Shown here: positions 1,488-51,521 of the stretch, piece by piece | Layout: every line of letters begins with the position of its first letter | Numbering within the stretch: position 1 is the stretch's first letter | Assembly: GCA_019637115.1 (NCBI GenBank) | Contig: JAHBWH010000030.1 | Span: 1 to 58,692 of the forward strand | Direction: 5' to 3' | Source of the DNA: Myxococcales bacterium | GTDB lineage: Bacteria; Myxococcota_A; Polyangia; Polyangiales; Houyiibacteriaceae | Length of the DNA stretch: 58,692 nucleotides | The notes under the pieces: generated by a model | Databases searched by the model: none | Seen by the model: only the letters and a program-made list of their open reading frames with translations | Told to the model about the DNA's origin: nothing | Made by a program: the position numbers and the translations under genes

Positions 1488-1584
1488 CCGCACATCGTCC
1501 CCGAAGCCACGCGAGCCGTCCAGGGCACGAGTCGGCGCGTCGGCTCGCTCGACGTGAGTCCGTTCCATTCCGGGCGCAGAGCAT

Positions 1585-1640
1585 GGGCAGGGGCATGGGC
1601 ACGGGCAGGGGCACGGGGCACGGGGCACGGGCACGGGCAT
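1585..1640 (+). repeat. (GGGCAN)n hexamer array in the leader of the S9 peptidase
   Basis: Nine consecutive units GGGCAG, GGGCAT or GGGCAC, two of them with an extra G. They end 54 bases before the ATG at 1695, with the G-rich strand as the coding strand. Runs of GGG separated by three bases are classical G-quadruplex-forming sequence. Closely related arrays lie at 13642-13674 and 14092-14124. Confidence 0.85.
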
Positions 1641-12223: not shown

Positions 12224-13585
12224 TCACGGCGCCTCGATGAGGCTCGTCGCGATCGGGATGATCGACCACGTGATCATCGAGCGCGCCTGCTCGCGCGTCG
12301 TCATCGTCTGCCGACGAGCGCGTCCGTTCACCCACACGTAGCGGCGCAGCTCGCCGTCGTTGTCGCTCGCCACGTAGAGCTCGTCGCGGCCGTCGCCGTC
12401 GAGATCCGCGAGCACGGACGCATGCTCGAAGCCACCGCTGTCGCGGTCGATGCTCTCGGCGCTCCACATCGCGCGGGGGTTCGCGCCCGGACGCAGGATC
12501 CACAGGCCCTGGCTGAAGCTCGCGACGACCATCTCCTTCTTGCCGTCGCCGTCCACGTCGCCGACCGTGATGAAGCGCGTGAGGTGGTCGCCCTCGATGC
12601 GCGCCACCACGACGCCCTGGTCGGGCGGCGTGTCGTGATCGTAGCGCCGGATCTCGACGGGCTCGACGACCCGCAGCCCGCCTTCGCCGCGCTCGGTGAG
12701 CCCCTCGACCGCGACGTAGAGCTCGTCGCGCCCATCGCCGTCGACGTCGCCGACGTAGATCTCCTTGGCGTGGCGGTTGCCCAGGTCGGCGACGATGGTG
12801 CTCTCGAGCCCGCGGCTCGGCACGTAGCGGACGACCTCGCCAGACTGCCCGCCCCCGCGGGTGTGGTTCGGCTCGCTCGGCGTGGCGTAGACCTCGACCA
12901 CGCCGTCGCCGTCGAGGTCACCGAGCTCGATCTCGTGCACGAAGATGTCGCGGCGCTTCGGCGTCTGCTGGACGGTCCACTGCCCGTCCTCGCCGAGGCG
13001 CGCGAAGGCGACCACGCCCTGATCGTGCGTCGCGATCGCGAGGGCCGGCCGACCGTCCCCGTAGAGGTCGCCGACCTCGACGTCGCGCATCCGGTCGAAG
13101 CGACCCCCGAAGGACTCGCTCCAGATGGTGCTCGCCGTCCAGCCCGAGGCGCCGCGCGTCCAGAGCTTCACGTGCGCGCCCATGCCGCCGATCGTGAGGA
13201 TGCCCGGCGTGCCGCCCGGCGGGACGAAGGGCATCGCCTTGTGAAAGACGTTGCTGTCGGGGTCGGTGATCACGTCGGCGACGCGCCACTCGCCGCCGCT
13301 ACGGACGATCATCTCGAGCCGCGCCGGCGCGGGCTGTACCCACTGACCGGCCTCGTTCTGGCTGAAGGGCGAGTAGCCGACGAGCAGCCCGTTCGGCAGC
13401 GCGTCGGGGACCGCGAGCGGGTCGGCGACGCGCGCCGCGGGCTCGCCGCCCATCGCCGAGGAGCTGGTCGCCTCCGTGGGGGTCGGCGGCTCGGCGGGCT
13501 GAGAGGGGGTCTCGTTGGAGCTGCCGCAGGCGGCGCCGAGGAGCGCGAGGGCGCTGGTGAGGATCCGGAATCGCTCGAGGCTCAT
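12224..13585 (-). CDS. FG-GAP/VCBS-repeat lipoprotein
   Basis: 453 residues. The signal peptide MSLERFRILTSALALLGAACGSS has a lipobox (GAAC). After a Pro/Thr/Ser linker come at least five FG-GAP-like blades with Ca-binding loops: GDLYGDGRPALAIA, GDLDGDGVVEVYA, GDVDGDGRDELYVA, GDVDGDGKKEMVVA and ADLDGDGRDELYVA. This is an integrin-alpha-like beta-propeller, probably extracytoplasmic, with Ca-stabilised blades. No catalytic motif is visible. The ATG at 13585 starts the signal peptide exactly. Its leader contains one arm of the 33-bp inverted repeat and the minisatellite block. The role could be adhesion or surface recognition. Confidence 0.85.
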   Translation of the reverse strand: MSLERFRILTSALALLGAACGSSNETPSQPAEPPTPTEATSSSAMGGEPAARVADPLAVPDALPNGLLVGYSPFSQNEAGQWVQPAPARLEMIVRSGGEWRVADVITDPDSNVFHKAMPFVPPGGTPGILTIGGMGAHVKLWTRGASGWTASTIWSESFGGRFDRMRDVEVGDLYGDGRPALAIATHDQGVVAFARLGEDGQWTVQQTPKRRDIFVHEIELGDLDGDGVVEVYATPSEPNHTRGGGQSGEVVRYVPSRGLESTIVADLGNRHAKEIYVGDVDGDGRDELYVAVEGLTERGEGGLRVVEPVEIRRYDHDTPPDQGVVVARIEGDHLTRFITVGDVDGDGKKEMVVASFSQGLWILRPGANPRAMWSAESIDRDSGGFEHASVLADLDGDGRDELYVASDNDGELRRYVWVNGRARRQTMTTREQARSMITWSIIPIATSLIEAP

Positions 13586-13641
13586 GGGGTGGGCAGTACC
13601 AACGCGGGATCGGCAGCGCAACGTGAACGAAGTTTAGTAGT

Positions 13642-13674
13642 CCCCTGCCCCTGCCCTTGCCCGTGCCCTTGCCC
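13642..13674 (-). repeat. left arm of 33-bp inverted repeat, (GGGCAN)n on the minus strand
   Basis: Read on the minus strand it is a run of GGGCAA, GGGCAC and GGGCAG units. It is the reverse complement of 14092-14124 with 32 of 33 bases matching. It lies 56 bases upstream of the FG-GAP gene start and has G-quadruplex potential. Confidence 0.85.
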
Positions 13675-13720
13675 TGTGTTCCGTCCTTCCTTCCCCCTGT
13701 CTTGCCTTCCCTGCCCCTCC

Positions 13721-13800
13721 CTTCCCTCCCCCTGTCTTGCCTTCCCTCCCCCTGTCTTGCCTTCCCTCCCCCTGTCTTGCCTTCCCTCCCCCTGTCTTCC
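13721..13800 (+). repeat. 20-bp minisatellite, four copies
   Basis: The unit CTTCCCTCCCCCTGTCTTGC is repeated head to tail four times (last two bases differ in copy four). The strand is pure pyrimidine except for two G per unit. Confidence 0.92.
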
Positions 13801-13877
13801 CGTCTTCCCTCCGTCTTCCCTCCGTCTTCCCTCCGTCTTCCCTCCGTCTTCCCTCCGTCTTCCCTCCATCTTCCCGC
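13801..13877 (+). repeat. 11-bp minisatellite, six perfect and one degenerate copy
   Basis: The unit CGTCTTCCCTC is repeated from 13801 to 13866, with a degenerate seventh copy to 13877. It directly abuts the 20-bp array and shares its polypyrimidine character. Confidence 0.92.
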
Positions 13878-13930
13878 CGTCCCTCCCCCTGCCTTCCCTC
13901 CGTCCCGTCCCACCCCCCTGCTCTTCCGTC

Positions 13931-13980
13931 GCTCCCCTGTCTTCCCCTGTCTTCCCCTGTCTTCCCCTGTCTTCCCCTGT
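13931..13980 (+). repeat. 10-bp minisatellite, five copies
   Basis: The unit CTTCCCCTGT occurs four times perfectly (13941-13980) after one degenerate copy (13931-13940). It is the third adjacent array, built from the same CTTCCC and CCTGT words as the other two. Confidence 0.9.
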
Positions 13981-14091
13981 CCTTGCCCTCGCGAAGGCCG
14001 AGCGGGGTGGAGACTCGGGACCGGTGGGCAAGGGTTCGAACGGCGTTGGGGCTCGGGGGGGAAGTGGGGTGAATGGGGGCAGGGAACTCCG

Positions 14092-14124
14092 GGGCAAGGG
14101 CAAGGGCAAGGGCAGGGGCAGGGG
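14092..14124 (+). repeat. right arm of 33-bp inverted repeat, (GGGCAN)n on the plus strand
   Basis: Three GGGCAA then two GGGCAG units and a final GGG. It matches the reverse complement of 13642-13674 at 32 of 33 positions and ends 132 bases before the ATG at 14257. Three-base loops between GGG runs favour a parallel G-quadruplex. Confidence 0.85.
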
Positions 14125-14256
14125 ACCGCATGCGCTGCTCCACGTCGAGAATTTGACCCCCCACCCCCACCCAGCTACCCGAAGGGGTCATGCGGCGGCT
14201 CGGGCGAAGGGGCGCCGCATCGAAACCCCGCGAATCGGCGGGCATGCGAGGGCGAC

Positions 14257-17200
14257 ATGAGCAATACCGCGACGGTGCCGGGCGAGGTGCCGATGAGTGA
14301 CGAGCAGCGCGTGGCTGGCGGCCCCGCGATCGAGCGAGAGACCGCGAAGGCGAGCCGGAGCCCCAAGCAGCTCGTGCTCCTCCTGCTGAAGATCGCTTTC
14401 AGCGTCGCGATGCTCGTCGTGGTCTTCCGCAAGGTCGTCCTGCGCGAGGGCGCCGCGGATCTCGGCGCCCGCCTCGCGAACCTCCACTGGGGCTGGATCG
14501 CGGCGGCCGTCTCGATGCAGCTCGTCGCCATCGTCTTCGCGACCTTCCGCTGGCGGGCGCTCCTCGGCGGCCAGGGCATCCGGCCCCGCTGGGGCTTCCT
14601 CGCCGGCTCGATCATGATCGCCCGCTTCTGGGGCGCCTTCACGCCCGGCGGCTTCACCGGCTTCGGCGGCTGGCGCATCTACGACGTCGCCAAGCACACG
14701 GGCAAGGTCGCCCGCGCGGCGGCCACCATCGGCACCGAGACGCTCCTCGGGCAGACCGCGATGGGCGTCGTCGTGATCGCGGGCACCCTCTTCTTCGGCG
14801 CCGCGTTCGTCGGCACGAGCGGCGTCTGGACGATCGTCGCGGTCTTCAGCGGCATCATCCTCGCCGCGATCACCCTGCTCGCGAAGCCCGCGCTCTTCCG
14901 CCTCGTCGCGCGCTTCTTGCCCCGGAAGATCGCGATCCGCGTCGAGACGCTGGTCGACGCCATCTGCGCTTACGAGGGCAAGGGCCTCCTGCTCGCCAAG
15001 GCCTTCGCGCTCGGCGTCGGCGTCCACGCCTTCAACGGCCTGATCTACGTCTGCGCCGCGCAGGCGCTCGGCGTCGAGCTCGGCGTCGGCCAGGTCTTCT
15101 TCGCCTCGAACATCCAGATCCTCGCGACGCTCCTGCCGGCCTCGATCAACGGCATCGGCCTGCGCGAGACCACCGCGGTCGCGCTCTACACGAGCCCGGC
15201 CATCGGACTGCCGCTCTCGGTGGCGGTGCTCATCCCGGTCGTCGGCTTCGCCTGCGAGATGTTCGTCTCGTCCTTCGGCGGGCTCGTCTTCCTGACGCGC
15301 CGCAGCGGCTACGCGCCCGTCATCGAGGTCGACGACCCCGACCGCGAGGCCGCCGTGCACGCGTCCATCCCCGACGTCCCCGAGGCGGAGTGGCCGCGGC
15401 GGCTGCGCGGCCTGACGCTCGGCCTCGGCGGCGGGCTCGTCGGTGGCTTCCTCGTCGGCGTGGTCGAGGCGCTCGTCGTGCTCGCCGGCGCGAACGGCAC
15501 GGTCGCTTTCCGCGTCGTGCCCTACGGCGCGGCGGTCTACGCGATCTTCTTCGGGCTCGCAGGCGGCGGCATGGGCCTCGTGCTCGCGTGGAGTGGCCGC
15601 TGGATGAAGCGAGAGGCGGCCCCCGAGGCGGAGACTTTCGCGCGCACCGCGGCGTTCTTCGCGGCCACCGCCGCCTTCGCGCTCGGCGCGTTCCGGATCC
15701 GCCGCGACGTCTTCGCCGAGGAGTTGGTCTGGAAGAGCCTCGGCGGCCTCGGCGTGCTCGTGGGCTGCCTCGTGGCCGCGACCGCGATCTACCTCGGGCT
15801 CTTCTTCGGCCTACGCGCGCTCGCGCGTGTCGGCGCGAAGGGCGAGCGGCCGGGGCTGCTCCTGCGCGGCTTCGGCGCGCCCGCGCTCGTCGCGGCGCTC
15901 CTCGGCGTGCTCGCGGGCGTCAGCGCGGCCCAGGGCGGCGTGCCCCTCGTCGACCGCAACCCGAGCACCGCGACCGCGCCCGAGGGCGCCGGCAACGTGC
16001 TCTTCATCGTCGTCGACACCCTCCGCGCCGACCACCTCCCGGCATACGGCTACCAGAACAACCGCACGCCGAACCTCGACGAGTTCGCGCGCGATGCGAT
16101 CCGCTTCGACCAGGCCTTCGCGCCCGCGAGCTGGACGCGCCCAAGCTTCGCCTCGATCCTCACGGGCCGCCTACCCTCGAGCCATGGGGTGATGGCCAAG
16201 CCCGACGCGCTCTCCGACGAGCTCGTCACCATGCCCGAGGTCTTCGGCGAGCACGGCTGGGAGACGCGCGGCATCGCGACCAACTACAACGTCGCGCCCT
16301 ACTTCAACTTCAACCAGGGCTTCGACCGCTACGAATACCTCGAGCCGAACTTCGTGCTCGGCGCGGACGACGCCGCCGCGAAGCTCCTGCTCGTCCAGAC
16401 GCTCAAGCGCGTCGTCGAGACGATCACCGCCAAGCTCGGCCACGTCGCGCCGGGCAGCGCCTACCAGGACGCGCCGGCGGTGAACGCGCGCATCCTCGAC
16501 TGGCTCGACGCAGGCACGGAGGGCGGGCGCCCGTTCTTCCACTTCGTCGGGTACATGGACCCGCACGATCCGTACTACCCGCACCCCTACGACGGAACCG
16601 GCTACAGCCGCGCGGCGAACCAGCGCCCGCGGCCCGAAGAGGCGCCGCGGCTGCGCGCGCTCTACGACGGCGAGATCGAGTTCTGGGACGAGCACTTCGG
16701 CCAGCTCGTCGCGGAGCTGAAGCGGCGTGGGCTCTACGACGACCTCACGATCGTGATCACGTCGGACCACGGCGAGGAGTTCTGTGATCACGGCGGCTTC
16801 TGGCACGGCGTCACGCTCTACGACGAGCAGGTGCGCATCCCCCTCTTCGTGAAGCTCCCGCGCGGCGAGCAGGCGGGCACGACGGTGCGCCACTGGGTGC
16901 AGCTCATCGACCTGATGCCGACGCTCCTCCAGCGCTTCGACCTCCCCGTCCCCGAGGGTGTCCAAGGCGGCAGCCTCTTCCGCGGCACCGACCTCGTCTA
17001 CGCCGAGGAGAGCCACGAGGGCAACGTGCTCGAGAGCGTGCGCGAGCGCCGGGGCACGGACGAGTGGAAGATCATCACCGCCAACCCCGGCAACCCGCGC
17101 GGGCTCGAGCCGCTGGAGGTCTACCGCGTCGACCTCGACCCGGGCGAGCAGCAGAACGTCGCCGAGGTCGAGCGCGAGGCCACCGTGCGCCTGATGGAGA

Positions 17201-17316
17201 GCCTCGTCGCTGCTGGCCAGCGCGCCCGCGAGGGCCGCGTCGAGAGCGAGACGGTCGACCTCACGGGCGAAGCCGCCGCGCGCCTCCAGGCCATCGGCTA
17301 CATGGAAGACGAGTAG
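14257..17316 (+). CDS. LPG-synthase-type membrane domain fused to alkaline-phosphatase-superfamily (sulfatase-like) domain
   Basis: A 1019-residue membrane protein. Residues of about 35-340 form the UPF0104/LPG_synthase_TM flippase-type domain (multiple TM segments; FWGAFTPGGFTGFGGWR, ASINGIGLRETTAVALY). Residues of about 395-570 hold about five or six further TM segments. Residues 580-1019 are an alkaline-phosphatase-superfamily domain with the metal ligands VVDTLRADH (Asp587) and TSDHGEE (Asp837, His838) and a downstream FWHG His. At the nucleophile position, where sulfatases have C-x-P-S-R, it reads SWTRPSF, so Thr627 is the likely nucleophile, as in LtaS and phosphoethanolamine transferases. 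This suggests a phospho-group transferase or phosphatase acting outside on a lipid or glycan moved by its own membrane domain (inference). The start ATG has GAGGG upstream. Confidence 0.88.
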   Translation: MSNTATVPGEVPMSDEQRVAGGPAIERETAKASRSPKQLVLLLLKIAFSVAMLVVVFRKVVLREGAADLGARLANLHWGWIAAAVSMQLVAIVFATFRWRALLGGQGIRPRWGFLAGSIMIARFWGAFTPGGFTGFGGWRIYDVAKHTGKVARAAATIGTETLLGQTAMGVVVIAGTLFFGAAFVGTSGVWTIVAVFSGIILAAITLLAKPALFRLVARFLPRKIAIRVETLVDAICAYEGKGLLLAKAFALGVGVHAFNGLIYVCAAQALGVELGVGQVFFASNIQILATLLPASINGIGLRETTAVALYTSPAIGLPLSVAVLIPVVGFACEMFVSSFGGLVFLTRRSGYAPVIEVDDPDREAAVHASIPDVPEAEWPRRLRGLTLGLGGGLVGGFLVGVVEALVVLAGANGTVAFRVVPYGAAVYAIFFGLAGGGMGLVLAWSGRWMKREAAPEAETFARTAAFFAATAAFALGAFRIRRDVFAEELVWKSLGGLGVLVGCLVAATAIYLGLFFGLRALARVGAKGERPGLLLRGFGAPALVAALLGVLAGVSAAQGGVPLVDRNPSTATAPEGAGNVLFIVVDTLRADHLPAYGYQNNRTPNLDEFARDAIRFDQAFAPASWTRPSFASILTGRLPSSHGVMAKPDALSDELVTMPEVFGEHGWETRGIATNYNVAPYFNFNQGFDRYEYLEPNFVLGADDAAAKLLLVQTLKRVVETITAKLGHVAPGSAYQDAPAVNARILDWLDAGTEGGRPFFHFVGYMDPHDPYYPHPYDGTGYSRAANQRPRPEEAPRLRALYDGEIEFWDEHFGQLVAELKRRGLYDDLTIVITSDHGEEFCDHGGFWHGVTLYDEQVRIPLFVKLPRGEQAGTTVRHWVQLIDLMPTLLQRFDLPVPEGVQGGSLFRGTDLVYAEESHEGNVLESVRERRGTDEWKIITANPGNPRGLEPLEVYRVDLDPGEQQNVAEVEREATVRLMESLVAAGQRAREGRVESETVDLTGEAAARLQAIGYMEDE

Positions 17317-49400: not shown

Positions 49401-51521
49401 GACGGCGTCGCGGGCGCCCTCTGCGGCGAGCCCGAAGTCGGCGACGGGCACGCCCGCGAAGGCGCTCGCGAAGCCGCCCCTCACCTCGAGGCCCTGCGGG
49501 CCGACGAGCGGCCGCGCGCGGACGAGCAGCTCGCCATGCGTGCCGGCGTCGAGCGTGAAGCGTGCCCGCGTCTCGCGGCCGTCGACGACCTGCGTCGCGA
49601 GCGGGCGGAGGGCGGGCGCGCGCGCGAAGAGGGTCACGGTGACGGGCATGCCCGCGGCGCCCGGCGCGCGGTCGATCTCGACGGCAAGCTCCGCGCCTGG
49701 CGCGACGAGCGCTTGGGCGGCCCGGACTCGGAGGGAGGCGTCGGCGTCGACCGGCAAGCAGCGCCCCTCGGCCGTCTCTCCCTGCACGCTGACCACGACG
49801 TCGGTCGCGGACTCCCCGCCGCAGCGGTCGCCCTCCTTCACCGGGCCGACGCGCACGTCGAGCGCTGCGACGCCGCCCTCGGAGGTGACGCCGCTGGCGC
49901 GCCCCACGCGCGGCCCCTCGAGCGACACGGGCACGTTGGCGGGCGCGGGCGCGCCGTCCATGGTCGTCACGCGCACGAACACACGCGCGCCGAGGCCGGG
50001 GACGAGCGCCGCCCCCTCGATCGAGAGGCGCGAGGCGTAGAGGCGCCCGCTGACACGCACGGTCGCGGCGCCCGCGCCAGTCCCGACGCCAGCGCGCCCC
50101 GCCTGCACGATCATCGTCGTGTCGCCGTACTCGCCGCCGATCCGCGGCGCCTGCCACTCGAGCGAGGCGCGGCCGCGCGCGTCGGTGATCGTGAAGCGCT
50201 CACGCGGATCATCGAGGCGCTCGTCGAGCGGGATCGGTCCGCCCCCGAGCCGCAGCCGCGTCTCGGGCACCGGCCGGCCATCGGCGCGCCGCACGACCAC
50301 GTCGATCCGCACGCGCTCGCCGGGCAGCGCGAGGTGCTTGCTCGGCTGCACCTGAACGAGCAGCGGCGGCTCGCTCGACGCGCTGACGCTCGCCGTCCAG
50401 CTCGCGCGCACGCGCCGCGCCTCACCAGGGGCGCGCTCGCGCGTCGACTCGTCGCCGGGGCTCAGCGCGTCCACGCGCAGCGGCGCCTGTGCGTCCCGCG
50501 GGACGCGGAAGGCGTGCGCGTAGACCCCTCGGCCGTCGGTGCGTGCAACGACGGGCGCGCCCAAGGGGCCACGCGCGTCGTGGAGCGTGAGGCGGATCTC
50601 CTGGCCCGAGAGCCCCTCGGCGCCGCTCGCGTAGCGCCCGAAGACGGGAAGCTCTCCGGGCGAGGTGGCGGCCTCGGCCCCGAAGAGCGAGAGGGTCCGC
50701 GGCTCGAGCGTCGTGACGCGCAGCTCGAAGCGCCGGCTCACGCCGCGACGCGCGCGCAGCTCGATGGTCGCGCCGAACGAGCCCGGCGCGTCCGACGGGA
50801 CGGGGAGCTCGAGGAGCGCGCGGCCACGCGCGTCCGTAGTGAGCGAGAGGACTCCATCGCCATCCTCCCCGCGGCGCCGCGTGAGAGAGGTCGCGACGCG
50901 CACCTCGGCGCCGGGCGCCGGGCGGAGCCGGTCGAGCCCGACGACCTCGTACGCGACGAGCGCGAGCCGCAGCGTGTCGCCGCGCGCGACCGAGAGGCTC
51001 CCCTCGATCTGCAGCTCGACGCCGGTGACGTCGCCCGCCTGGACCGGTCGACGCCCGGCGACCTGGGCGCTCGCCGTGTCGCCGAGGAGCGACAGGACGC
51101 CGAGGAGGAGCGCGGCCCGCGTCACGAGCCCCCGCGACGGTCCGAGCGTCGCTGGCCTCCCCAGCCGCCGCGCCGGGCGGGCGCCGGGCGCGGTCTCGTG
51201 GGAGGCGGCCCCGCGGGGCGACTCGAAGGTGTGGTGGTTCCTCATGGTGCGCGAATCGGCGGGGCGGGTGTCGGTGGTGCGGACGTCGGCGGTGCGGATG
51301 TCGGCGGTGCGGGCGGCGGCGGTGCAGACGTCGGCGGTGCAGACGTCGGTGGTGCGGACGTCGGTGGTGCGGACGTCGGTGGTGCGGGCGGCGGCGGTGC
51401 AGACGTCGGTGGTGCGGGCGTCGGTGGTGCGGGCGGCGGCGGTGCAGACGTCGGCGGTGCAGACGTCGGCGGTGCGCGGGTCGACGGTGCCCGTCGCGCG
51501 CGAGCGGATCGGGCGGCTCAT
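46431..51521 (-). CDS. alpha-2-macroglobulin-like giant exported protein, paralogue A
   Basis: About 1696 residues. The ATG at 51521 overlaps the upstream stop by ATGA and has an ideal AGGAGG (51529-51534) seven bases away. It gives an N-terminus of 15 pentapeptide units (RTADV, CTAAA, RTTDV) and then a signal-like segment VTRAALLLGVLSLLGDTASAQ. A GTG at 51125 would start exactly at that signal peptide and is a real alternative. The body is a series of beta-rich macroglobulin-like domains, a helical segment with GEPLTIERLEALDRSFSWDT, a pseudopilin-like DGWGRPF with SAGPDGRFGNADDVYDP, and a C-terminal toroid-like region (LLRAQRPDGSFEGRE). No CGEQ thioester is present. It probably acts on the periplasmic or outer surface. 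The function is inferred only. Confidence 0.8.
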   Translation of the reverse strand: MSRPIRSRATGTVDPRTADVCTADVCTAAARTTDARTTDVCTAAARTTDVRTTDVRTTDVCTADVCTAAARTADIRTADVRTTDTRPADSRTMRNHHTFESPRGAASHETAPGARPARRLGRPATLGPSRGLVTRAALLLGVLSLLGDTASAQVAGRRPVQAGDVTGVELQIEGSLSVARGDTLRLALVAYEVVGLDRLRPAPGAEVRVATSLTRRRGEDGDGVLSLTTDARGRALLELPVPSDAPGSFGATIELRARRGVSRRFELRVTTLEPRTLSLFGAEAATSPGELPVFGRYASGAEGLSGQEIRLTLHDARGPLGAPVVARTDGRGVYAHAFRVPRDAQAPLRVDALSPGDESTRERAPGEARRVRASWTASVSASSEPPLLVQVQPSKHLALPGERVRIDVVVRRADGRPVPETRLRLGGGPIPLDERLDDPRERFTITDARGRASLEWQAPRIGGEYGDTTMIVQAGRAGVGTGAGAATVRVSGRLYASRLSIEGAALVPGLGARVFVRVTTMDGAPAPANVPVSLEGPRVGRASGVTSEGGVAALDVRVGPVKEGDRCGGESATDVVVSVQGETAEGRCLPVDADASLRVRAAQALVAPGAELAVEIDRAPGAAGMPVTVTLFARAPALRPLATQVVDGRETRARFTLDAGTHGELLVRARPLVGPQGLEVRGGFASAFAGVPVADFGLAAEGARDAVVARLRGGLAATSLAVPLGEDTTLRAHLEAAAAGPFADLRGAPRNDTTLAAVLAERTPTDVAAPAVLRGRSAEPAPEPASPEAHGLLRDPWRTSARFVEGRLALLFRAIEQRIDAAVPDQLDEVAIERGGRFSFNRQLLASLPTSSLGGEGATGLGGEPLTIERLEALDRSFSWDTVARRITRERLFKLLLALRQFVQQGALDLPWTRPGDPTLWVEQLRGRYVDGAGSIRPGLLVDGWGRPFRLVRTARARFGQVQPVAGYELVSAGPDGRFGNADDVYDPTARVLPTGSLYGAAVGEDALVARLRGVELGRATLGLAAGVFGAPHAHIAPPPDQTPTSALGSLPPRQEPDLHALALRRPTRPTSAVIGRGEGELRLAVGSEPRSWRVVALAVDAAGNLAVASDAARAGAPVLADLVLPSRLRTDEPLRFPLHLSNVSERDTSARLELTSEGVALALDASTVPIPAGESRSFEVEMRATSPGEHVVRVVVHGGEPAGELQRIEGRVAVDGGGHPIRRRAAGLAGTWSTRFDVPRGARGVQSRLVLVAPNALAADPDLADVRRDDPALVAWAETLAGRALDPALRARLLRAQRPDGSFEGREAKLSSAAAIVALAALVGDDGEPDPVAAAARERAVARLNNLPPFEDRDGQAGRVRMLAAVTAALATSGAAHEAGEVHDPIAELLRAALPELRRALIERPGEPTLLARAAGALLLADPRDGHARAMLAKARDAIADDGLVGGGERTGLSERLAASLALALGAKAIGDDALAERLVRQVAPHAPVVARRGGEEAFWWLAAGAYGALGGAPERVRVDGREITLERGTATLDLGLSAGASRRVEVVSSGGAVLARAEAVFAAPFDAREDGPLGLALAGEVGRVGELAALELSVRARARVNAPTLDLQLPAGVEPDERLLAALRSNGMVRSVERREPGFLRIVMAPMEPQQEATLPLPLRWRAAGSVRGLGVVAYEAAQPEAMSALAPRPMVVR
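51252..51476 (-). repeat. 15-bp coding minisatellite, about 15 units
   Basis: On the plus strand the unit is close to GTCGGTGGTGCGGAC, repeated about 15 times without interruption. Because 15 is a multiple of three, any change in copy number keeps the frame of paralogue A. The encoded units follow [RC]T[AT]D[VA] with a recurrent CTAAA variant. Confidence 0.9.

Follow-up and report, generated by a model that had tools for sequence, protein, structure and literature searches.

A fixed-length GGGCAN repeat module facing inward from gene edges in intergenic spacers of myxobacteria

REP and BIME sequences of enterobacteria are short units scattered near the 3' ends of genes, frequently in inverse pairs, and REP units are imperfect palindromes. 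G-rich tandem repeats anchored at gene edges have been known for a decade in Xanthomonas (GGGAATC) and in Nostoc/Anabaena (GGGGA(C/T)T) without an explained function (Rehm et al. 2015, PMC4692102): they are mostly intergenic and dispersed, have a preferred unit number that peaks at four, the minimum for a quadruplex, lie near one ORF whatever its direction, with the 5' end of the G strand toward the ORF, often form inverted pairs, which are convergent, and are used about equally in sense and antisense. A role of the quadruplex as a barrier or dock has been suggested for both repeats and not demonstrated (PMC4692102). BrickBuilt of Porphyromonas gingivalis is a MITE with a minisatellite (PMC4596501), and sites of Rho utilization (rut) have been described by an excess of C over G, spaced YC dimers and unstructured RNA (PMC9160355). 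A second family of edge-anchored G-rich repeats, built on the hexamer GGGCAN and found in myxobacterial genomes, adds a sharper length rule, an opposite polarity and a rule of spacing from the stop codon, and thereby turns the question of function into testable alternatives: an RNA landing site, a quadruplex or a mobile end.

The window, which is the whole 58,692-nucleotide stretch of Myxococcales DNA analysed, contains a 671-bp spacer between two genes that are divergent, as the earlier note had stated: a putative lipoprotein with FG-GAP/VCBS repeats on the minus strand (12224-13585; start at 13585) and a fusion of an N-terminal LPG_synthase_TM domain with a C-terminal sulfatase on the plus strand (14257-17316; start at 14257). 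The spacer holds the inverted repeat that had been noticed there, two 33-bp arms (13642-13674 and 14092-14124) that are reverse complements at 32 of 33 bases, and the match proves even longer, at 34 of 35 bases (13640-13674 and 14092-14126); it is far above chance for two random sequences, with the caution that both arms belong to a dispersed family of hexamer arrays of low diversity. The left arm (13642-13674) is (GGGCAN)5GGG on the minus strand, 33 bp with six tracts; its inward-reading plus strand is CCCCTGCCCCTGCCCTTGCCCGTGCCCTTGCCC, it lies 54-56 bp upstream of the ATG of the FG-GAP gene, and it is preceded by an outer A-rich linker (TGAACGAAGTTTAGTAGT; 13624-13641, plus strand) ending with the outer terminus of the family, AGT-CCCC (GGGGACT on the other strand). 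The right arm (14092-14126) is (GGGCAN)5GGG on the plus strand with the outer terminus GGGGAC, approximately 130 bp upstream of the ATG of the LPG_synthase_TM/sulfatase gene.

Between the arms are three locus-specific minisatellites: a 20-bp unit repeated 5.9 times (13685-13798; plus strand C/T-rich) on the inner side of the left arm, an 11-bp unit repeated 9.5 times (13800-13904) and a 10-bp unit repeated 4.9 times (13933-13981). Their description as abutting was approximate, about 28 bp of looser repeat lying between the last two. A G-rich segment (13990-14091) occupies the inner side of the right arm, and the reported flip of base skew in mid-block falls near 13990, the inward-reading strand being 55% C and 12% G on the left and 54% C and 18% G on the right. 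Inspection bore out that the two outer ends of the block show no visible target-site duplication; no Rfam covariance model matched positions 13500-14300 at E values up to 1, and neither sigma-70-type promoters nor intrinsic terminators (stem-loop plus U-tract) were found in the spacer. In this block a module stands at each edge of a divergent spacer, and the minisatellites that separate the two modules are specific to the locus. A second, degenerate GGGCAN array without the GGGGACT end (1581-1639, plus strand) lies in a divergent spacer, in the same outward orientation as the arms, 77 bp upstream of a plus-strand prolyl-oligopeptidase-like gene.

The two arms are copies of a dispersed module that has a direction and a fixed length, adjoins gene ends and reads inward as (CCCNTG)5CCC. 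In the genome of the window (G000, 8.88 Mb), the arm is present at 117 places with at most three mismatches, and the motif comprising arm plus terminus (GGGCANGGGCANGGGACT) has 65 matches genome-wide versus none for the reversed control; the family module, (GGGCAN)5GGG, is exactly 33 bp long with six G-tracts and ends in GGGGACT in this genome. Matches to a 27-mer number 470 in a second genus (G003), one in G008, which belongs to the same genus as G000, and none in many relatives; the occurrence of the module across the order is patchy. Run lengths derived from whole-genome counts of patterns of four, five, six and seven units peak sharply: runs of at least four, at least five and at least six units number 255, 201 and 12 in G003, 109, 79 and 30 in G000, and 28, 17 and 3 in G033, and 189 of the 255 runs in G003 have exactly five units (33 bp, six G-tracts). 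Runs of five units are prominent at the 3' and the 5' ends of genes alike, and at the gene 3' ends of G000 arms of four units are about as frequent as arms of five. The idea of an expanding simple-repeat locus, raised in the earlier note, thus fits the interior of the block and is wrong for the arm, the length of which is fixed at five units plus GGG. The genomes G155, G179, G146 and G180, from other families of the order, also contain many five-unit runs; restriction of the fixed length to the family of the window was dropped as a candidate because G155, G179 and others in the order peak at five as well. No arm was present in a 100-kb blind sample of G155.

The orientation of the module was determined relative to genes called with a simple custom codon-score caller (approximately 82% coding; spacer edges are approximate), at loci mostly picked around arms. 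In 65 of the 73 intergenic arms found in 1.58 Mb of G000, the G strand points toward the nearer gene (p = 3e-12), namely 33 of 35 at 3' ends and 32 of 38 at 5' ends; the same orientation was found for 66 of 80 arms in 460 kb of G003 (p = 3e-9), and in the divergent spacers of G003 there was no orientation rule (4/8). The C-rich strand reads inward from the edge of the spacer whichever way the genes point. When the arm was sought at both ends of other intergenic blocks, as had been proposed, arms on both strands were found in 13 spacers of G000 and 13 of G003, all of them C-rich on the left and G-rich on the right and none reversed, and with stricter detection both-edge spacers number 12 versus 0.5 expected from density in G000, and 13 versus 0.9 in G003. 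The excess of C over G runs on for 100 nt past the arm on its inner side in G000, mostly at +0.1 to +0.2. Spacers without arms have no comparable strand skew, so a general skew of all spacers was rejected. The proposal that each divergent gene possesses a G-rich non-template leader describes the geometry of this locus correctly, but there is no leader feature as such: the rule is identical between convergent and tandem genes, and a G-rich 5' leader as a rule was rejected because convergent genes show the same geometry. Comparison of orthologous genes of the two genera found the module at both in one case and at one only in eight and eight; conserved gene-specific regulation was rejected, as occupancy is not kept between these orthologues.

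The modules at gene 3' ends are anchored to stop codons. In G000, the array mostly begins 10-20 nt past the stop codon, for TGA, TAG and TAA alike, behind an A-rich linker that ends AGT-CCCC; in G003 the modal distance is about 9-17 nt; and the arms of G000 that face gene 5' ends are 22-24 nt or more away. Such spacing fits an array that starts just beyond the footprint of the terminating ribosome. In G003 and G033, the linker after the stop codon often carries or completes a hairpin at the stop codon, and in G003 this hairpin lies immediately ahead of the C-rich array: outer folds with z < -1.5 accompany 38% of the 3' modules of G003, 5% of its module-less 3' ends and 14% of its 5' modules. 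The outer flanks of modules in G000 are unstructured, with no hairpin.

The RNA that would be made by entry into the spacer is C-rich and unstructured at 3' and 5' modules alike and thereby resembles published descriptions of rut sites, and so the reading we favour, with modest confidence and a probability of roughly 0.35, is that the module may be a rut-like site, an unstructured C-rich RNA that would stop polymerase going from a gene into the spacer. The module has the C-over-G excess and the spaced YC dimers (read inward, the 33 nt of the window arm include 20 C and 6 G, with 10 matches to YC-N9-13-YC), and the inward RNA of both window arms is predicted to be no more structured than that of shuffles. 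From the observed geometry of the module we infer a mechanism in which polymerase would enter the spacer either in the sense direction past a stop codon or in the antisense direction past a start; the resulting RNA would be unstructured, C-rich and G-poor and would carry six CCC tracts at even intervals, immediately behind the last ribosome; a ring-shaped factor, in the simplest case the Rho hexamer, would load on the array and halt transcription; and two facing modules would make the spacer a two-way insulator. It is speculation that each subunit of the hexamer takes one CCC tract. That the 33-nt module with its six tracts is a ruler for a six-subunit ring protein, an inward copy insulating each gene edge regardless of direction, is possible if doubtful; if true, it would constitute a class of two-way transcription insulator used across part of a myxobacterial order, and two-way insulation would show how compact G+C-rich genomes separate the transcription of neighbouring genes.

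The stop-codon spacing, the fixed six tracts, the orientation at spacer edges and the excess of both-edge spacers count for the rut-like reading, as do the stop-codon hairpins of G003 and the 100-nt C excess of G000. The main objection, and the reason for modest confidence, is the lack of a sense-strand bias in tandem spacers, where the C-rich array is in the sense transcript in 16 of 31 cases in G000 and 16 of 43 in G003. Accordingly, use as an ordinary terminator finds no support, and antisense or two-way insulator use must be assumed. The divergent spacers of G003, the absence of hairpins from G000 and the unconserved occupancy also count against a rut-like site. Like the module, rut sites are C-rich and G-poor, unstructured as RNA, with spaced YC, and read away from the gene; unlike them, the module is a fixed periodic array of 33 nt that is antisense at 5' ends as often as it is sense at 3' ends. 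Canonical rut sites exceed the module in length and are less regularly built.

A boundary element of the DNA or RNA G-quadruplex or i-motif kind, in which the folded G-rich strand serves as a barrier or protein dock, is a rather doubtful alternative. By sequence every full module, with six GGG tracts and 3-nt loops, would be an ideal quadruplex former, and the nearest published family forms quadruplexes in vitro and is intergenic and edge-placed whatever the ORF direction (PMC4692102). With the Xanthomonas and Nostoc repeats the GGGCAN family shares G-rich tandem units, dispersed intergenic location, a preferred unit number, inverted pairs, edge placement irrespective of ORF direction and about equal sense and antisense use. 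It differs in its unit (period 6, versus the heptamers GGGANTN and GGGGAYT), in its six tracts (five units plus GGG, versus four), in its polarity (the 3' end of the G strand adjoins the gene in 65/73 and 66/80 arms, versus the 5' end) and in its pairs (26 of 26 divergent, versus convergent); the narrow distance from stop codons, the GGGGACT terminus, the locus-specific minisatellites on the inner side and the lack of conserved occupancy between genera are found in the GGGCAN family only. The family thus resembles its nearest published case in geometry and, judged by sequence, is not a member of it. For a quadruplex four tracts suffice, and four is also the peak number of units in the published family, whereas the module has six tracts and stops sharply; the polarity of the Xanthomonas repeat is opposite, and folding leaves the stop-codon spacing unexplained. 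REP and BIME sequences are like the GGGCAN family in being dispersed, near gene 3' ends and commonly in inverse pairs, but the latter is a non-palindromic hexamer array that is also present at 5' ends.

That the arms are the 33-bp terminal inverted repeats of a MITE-like element, mobile now or in the past, is unlikely. Such an element would account for the order of the arms, the independence of gene direction, the dispersal, the turnover between genera and the length of arm-bearing spacers, which are several times longer than others; the one orthologous spacer of G008 that was compared is short and armless (133 versus 289 bp), though too diverged for boundaries to be defined. Single-arm copies would on this account be truncated and the interiors turned into minisatellites. 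However, most arm-bearing spacers have one arm only, and no decayed partner was found at the other edge; the interiors are mostly locus-specific and share no common core, the longest shared stretch (562 bp, 86% identity, L026 versus L060) not being bounded by arms; no target-site duplication was seen in those paired spacers that were inspected by eye; and none of nine proteins next to or between arms is a transposase, on which count transposase cargo was rejected. Terminal inverted repeats on every copy, target-site duplication and a homologous interior, by which MITEs are recognised, were not seen in this family. Arms are also closer to stop codons than random insertion allows: in paired convergent spacers of G000 the sequence outside the arms totals 20-33 bp, versus a median of 124 bp where convergent spacers lack the module (p = 0.01). 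BrickBuilt resembles the window locus as an intergenic minisatellite block with inverted-repeat ends in many copies; its copies share one interior of 23-bp repeats, whereas GGGCAN interiors differ and most copies are one-armed. The variable bases of arms agree no better within a spacer (0.40) than between spacers (0.42; p = 0.62), and a cis stem-loop between paired arms was rejected as a selected feature, these bases matching no better than shuffles. One-armed spacers, unrelated interiors and unmatched paired arms together weaken both the non-autonomous transposon and the single symmetric element envisaged in the earlier note; the 13 and 13 both-arm spacers of constant order are compatible with a possible regulatory or boundary role symmetric about the spacer. 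No match to the arm plus terminus was found in viral contigs, and a phage origin was rejected.

It is improbable that the arms nucleate polar tandem duplication, with repeats growing on the inner side and pushing the arm to the edge of the spacer. Short tandem repeats in G000 cover 0.44 of the inner side, 0.13 of the outer side and 0.11 of module-less spacers, which is what such growth would produce, but G003 has no inner-side excess (0.20 versus 0.22), and the fixed arm length, the stop-codon spacing and the absence of reversed pairs would be unexplained. An ordinary functionless microsatellite, made of a hexamer merely common in G+C-rich genomes, is very improbable, for although the unit is simple, its occurrence patchy and some arrays in G000 long, the number of units is strongly peaked at exactly five across loci and genera and collapses at six, unlike a phase-variable microsatellite and where a neutral one is expected to show a falling length distribution, the orientation relative to the spacer is strict, and the outer terminus GGGGACT is defined (65 versus 0).

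Several minor features were observed in the course of this analysis. Approximately 7 of 65 arm termini in G000 lie within about 150 bp of a contig end, where about 1 is expected (C35:159, C273:59, C422:126, C58:21114 of 21198, C192:7945 of 7968, C206:6841 of 6952 and C380:101158 of 101207); arms therefore interrupt the assembly, and the true genome-wide numbers are probably higher than those counted. A 28-bp unit that includes the arm terminus (GGGGCAGGGGACTGCTTCTCCGGCGAAC) is repeated in tandem on the outer side of an arm in G000 (L025:9956-10040, contig C38). The 562-bp stretch (L026:6834-7384 and, in opposite orientation, the L060 spacer from 2626, both in G000) carries a large nested inverted repeat (GGCGGGGGAGGACACGCCCCGCCACACC...GGTGTGGTGGGGCGTGTCCTCCCCCGCC) and is possibly a separate mobile repeat or RNA. 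The dispersed repeat at L049:11399-11514 has dozens of matches in G033 and in G008, and that at L036:10748-10949 has dozens in G008, which suggests that every genome carries repeat families particular to it. In G034, a genome from another family, GGGCAN arrays are absent and the reversed pattern GGGNAC has 217 matches, which suggests a sister family of repeats built on a different unit. In the window itself, the top-scoring tandem array is a 15-bp repeat of 14.7 copies (TCGGCGGTGCGGACG; 51256-51476), located within or close to the beginning of a large gene on the minus strand.
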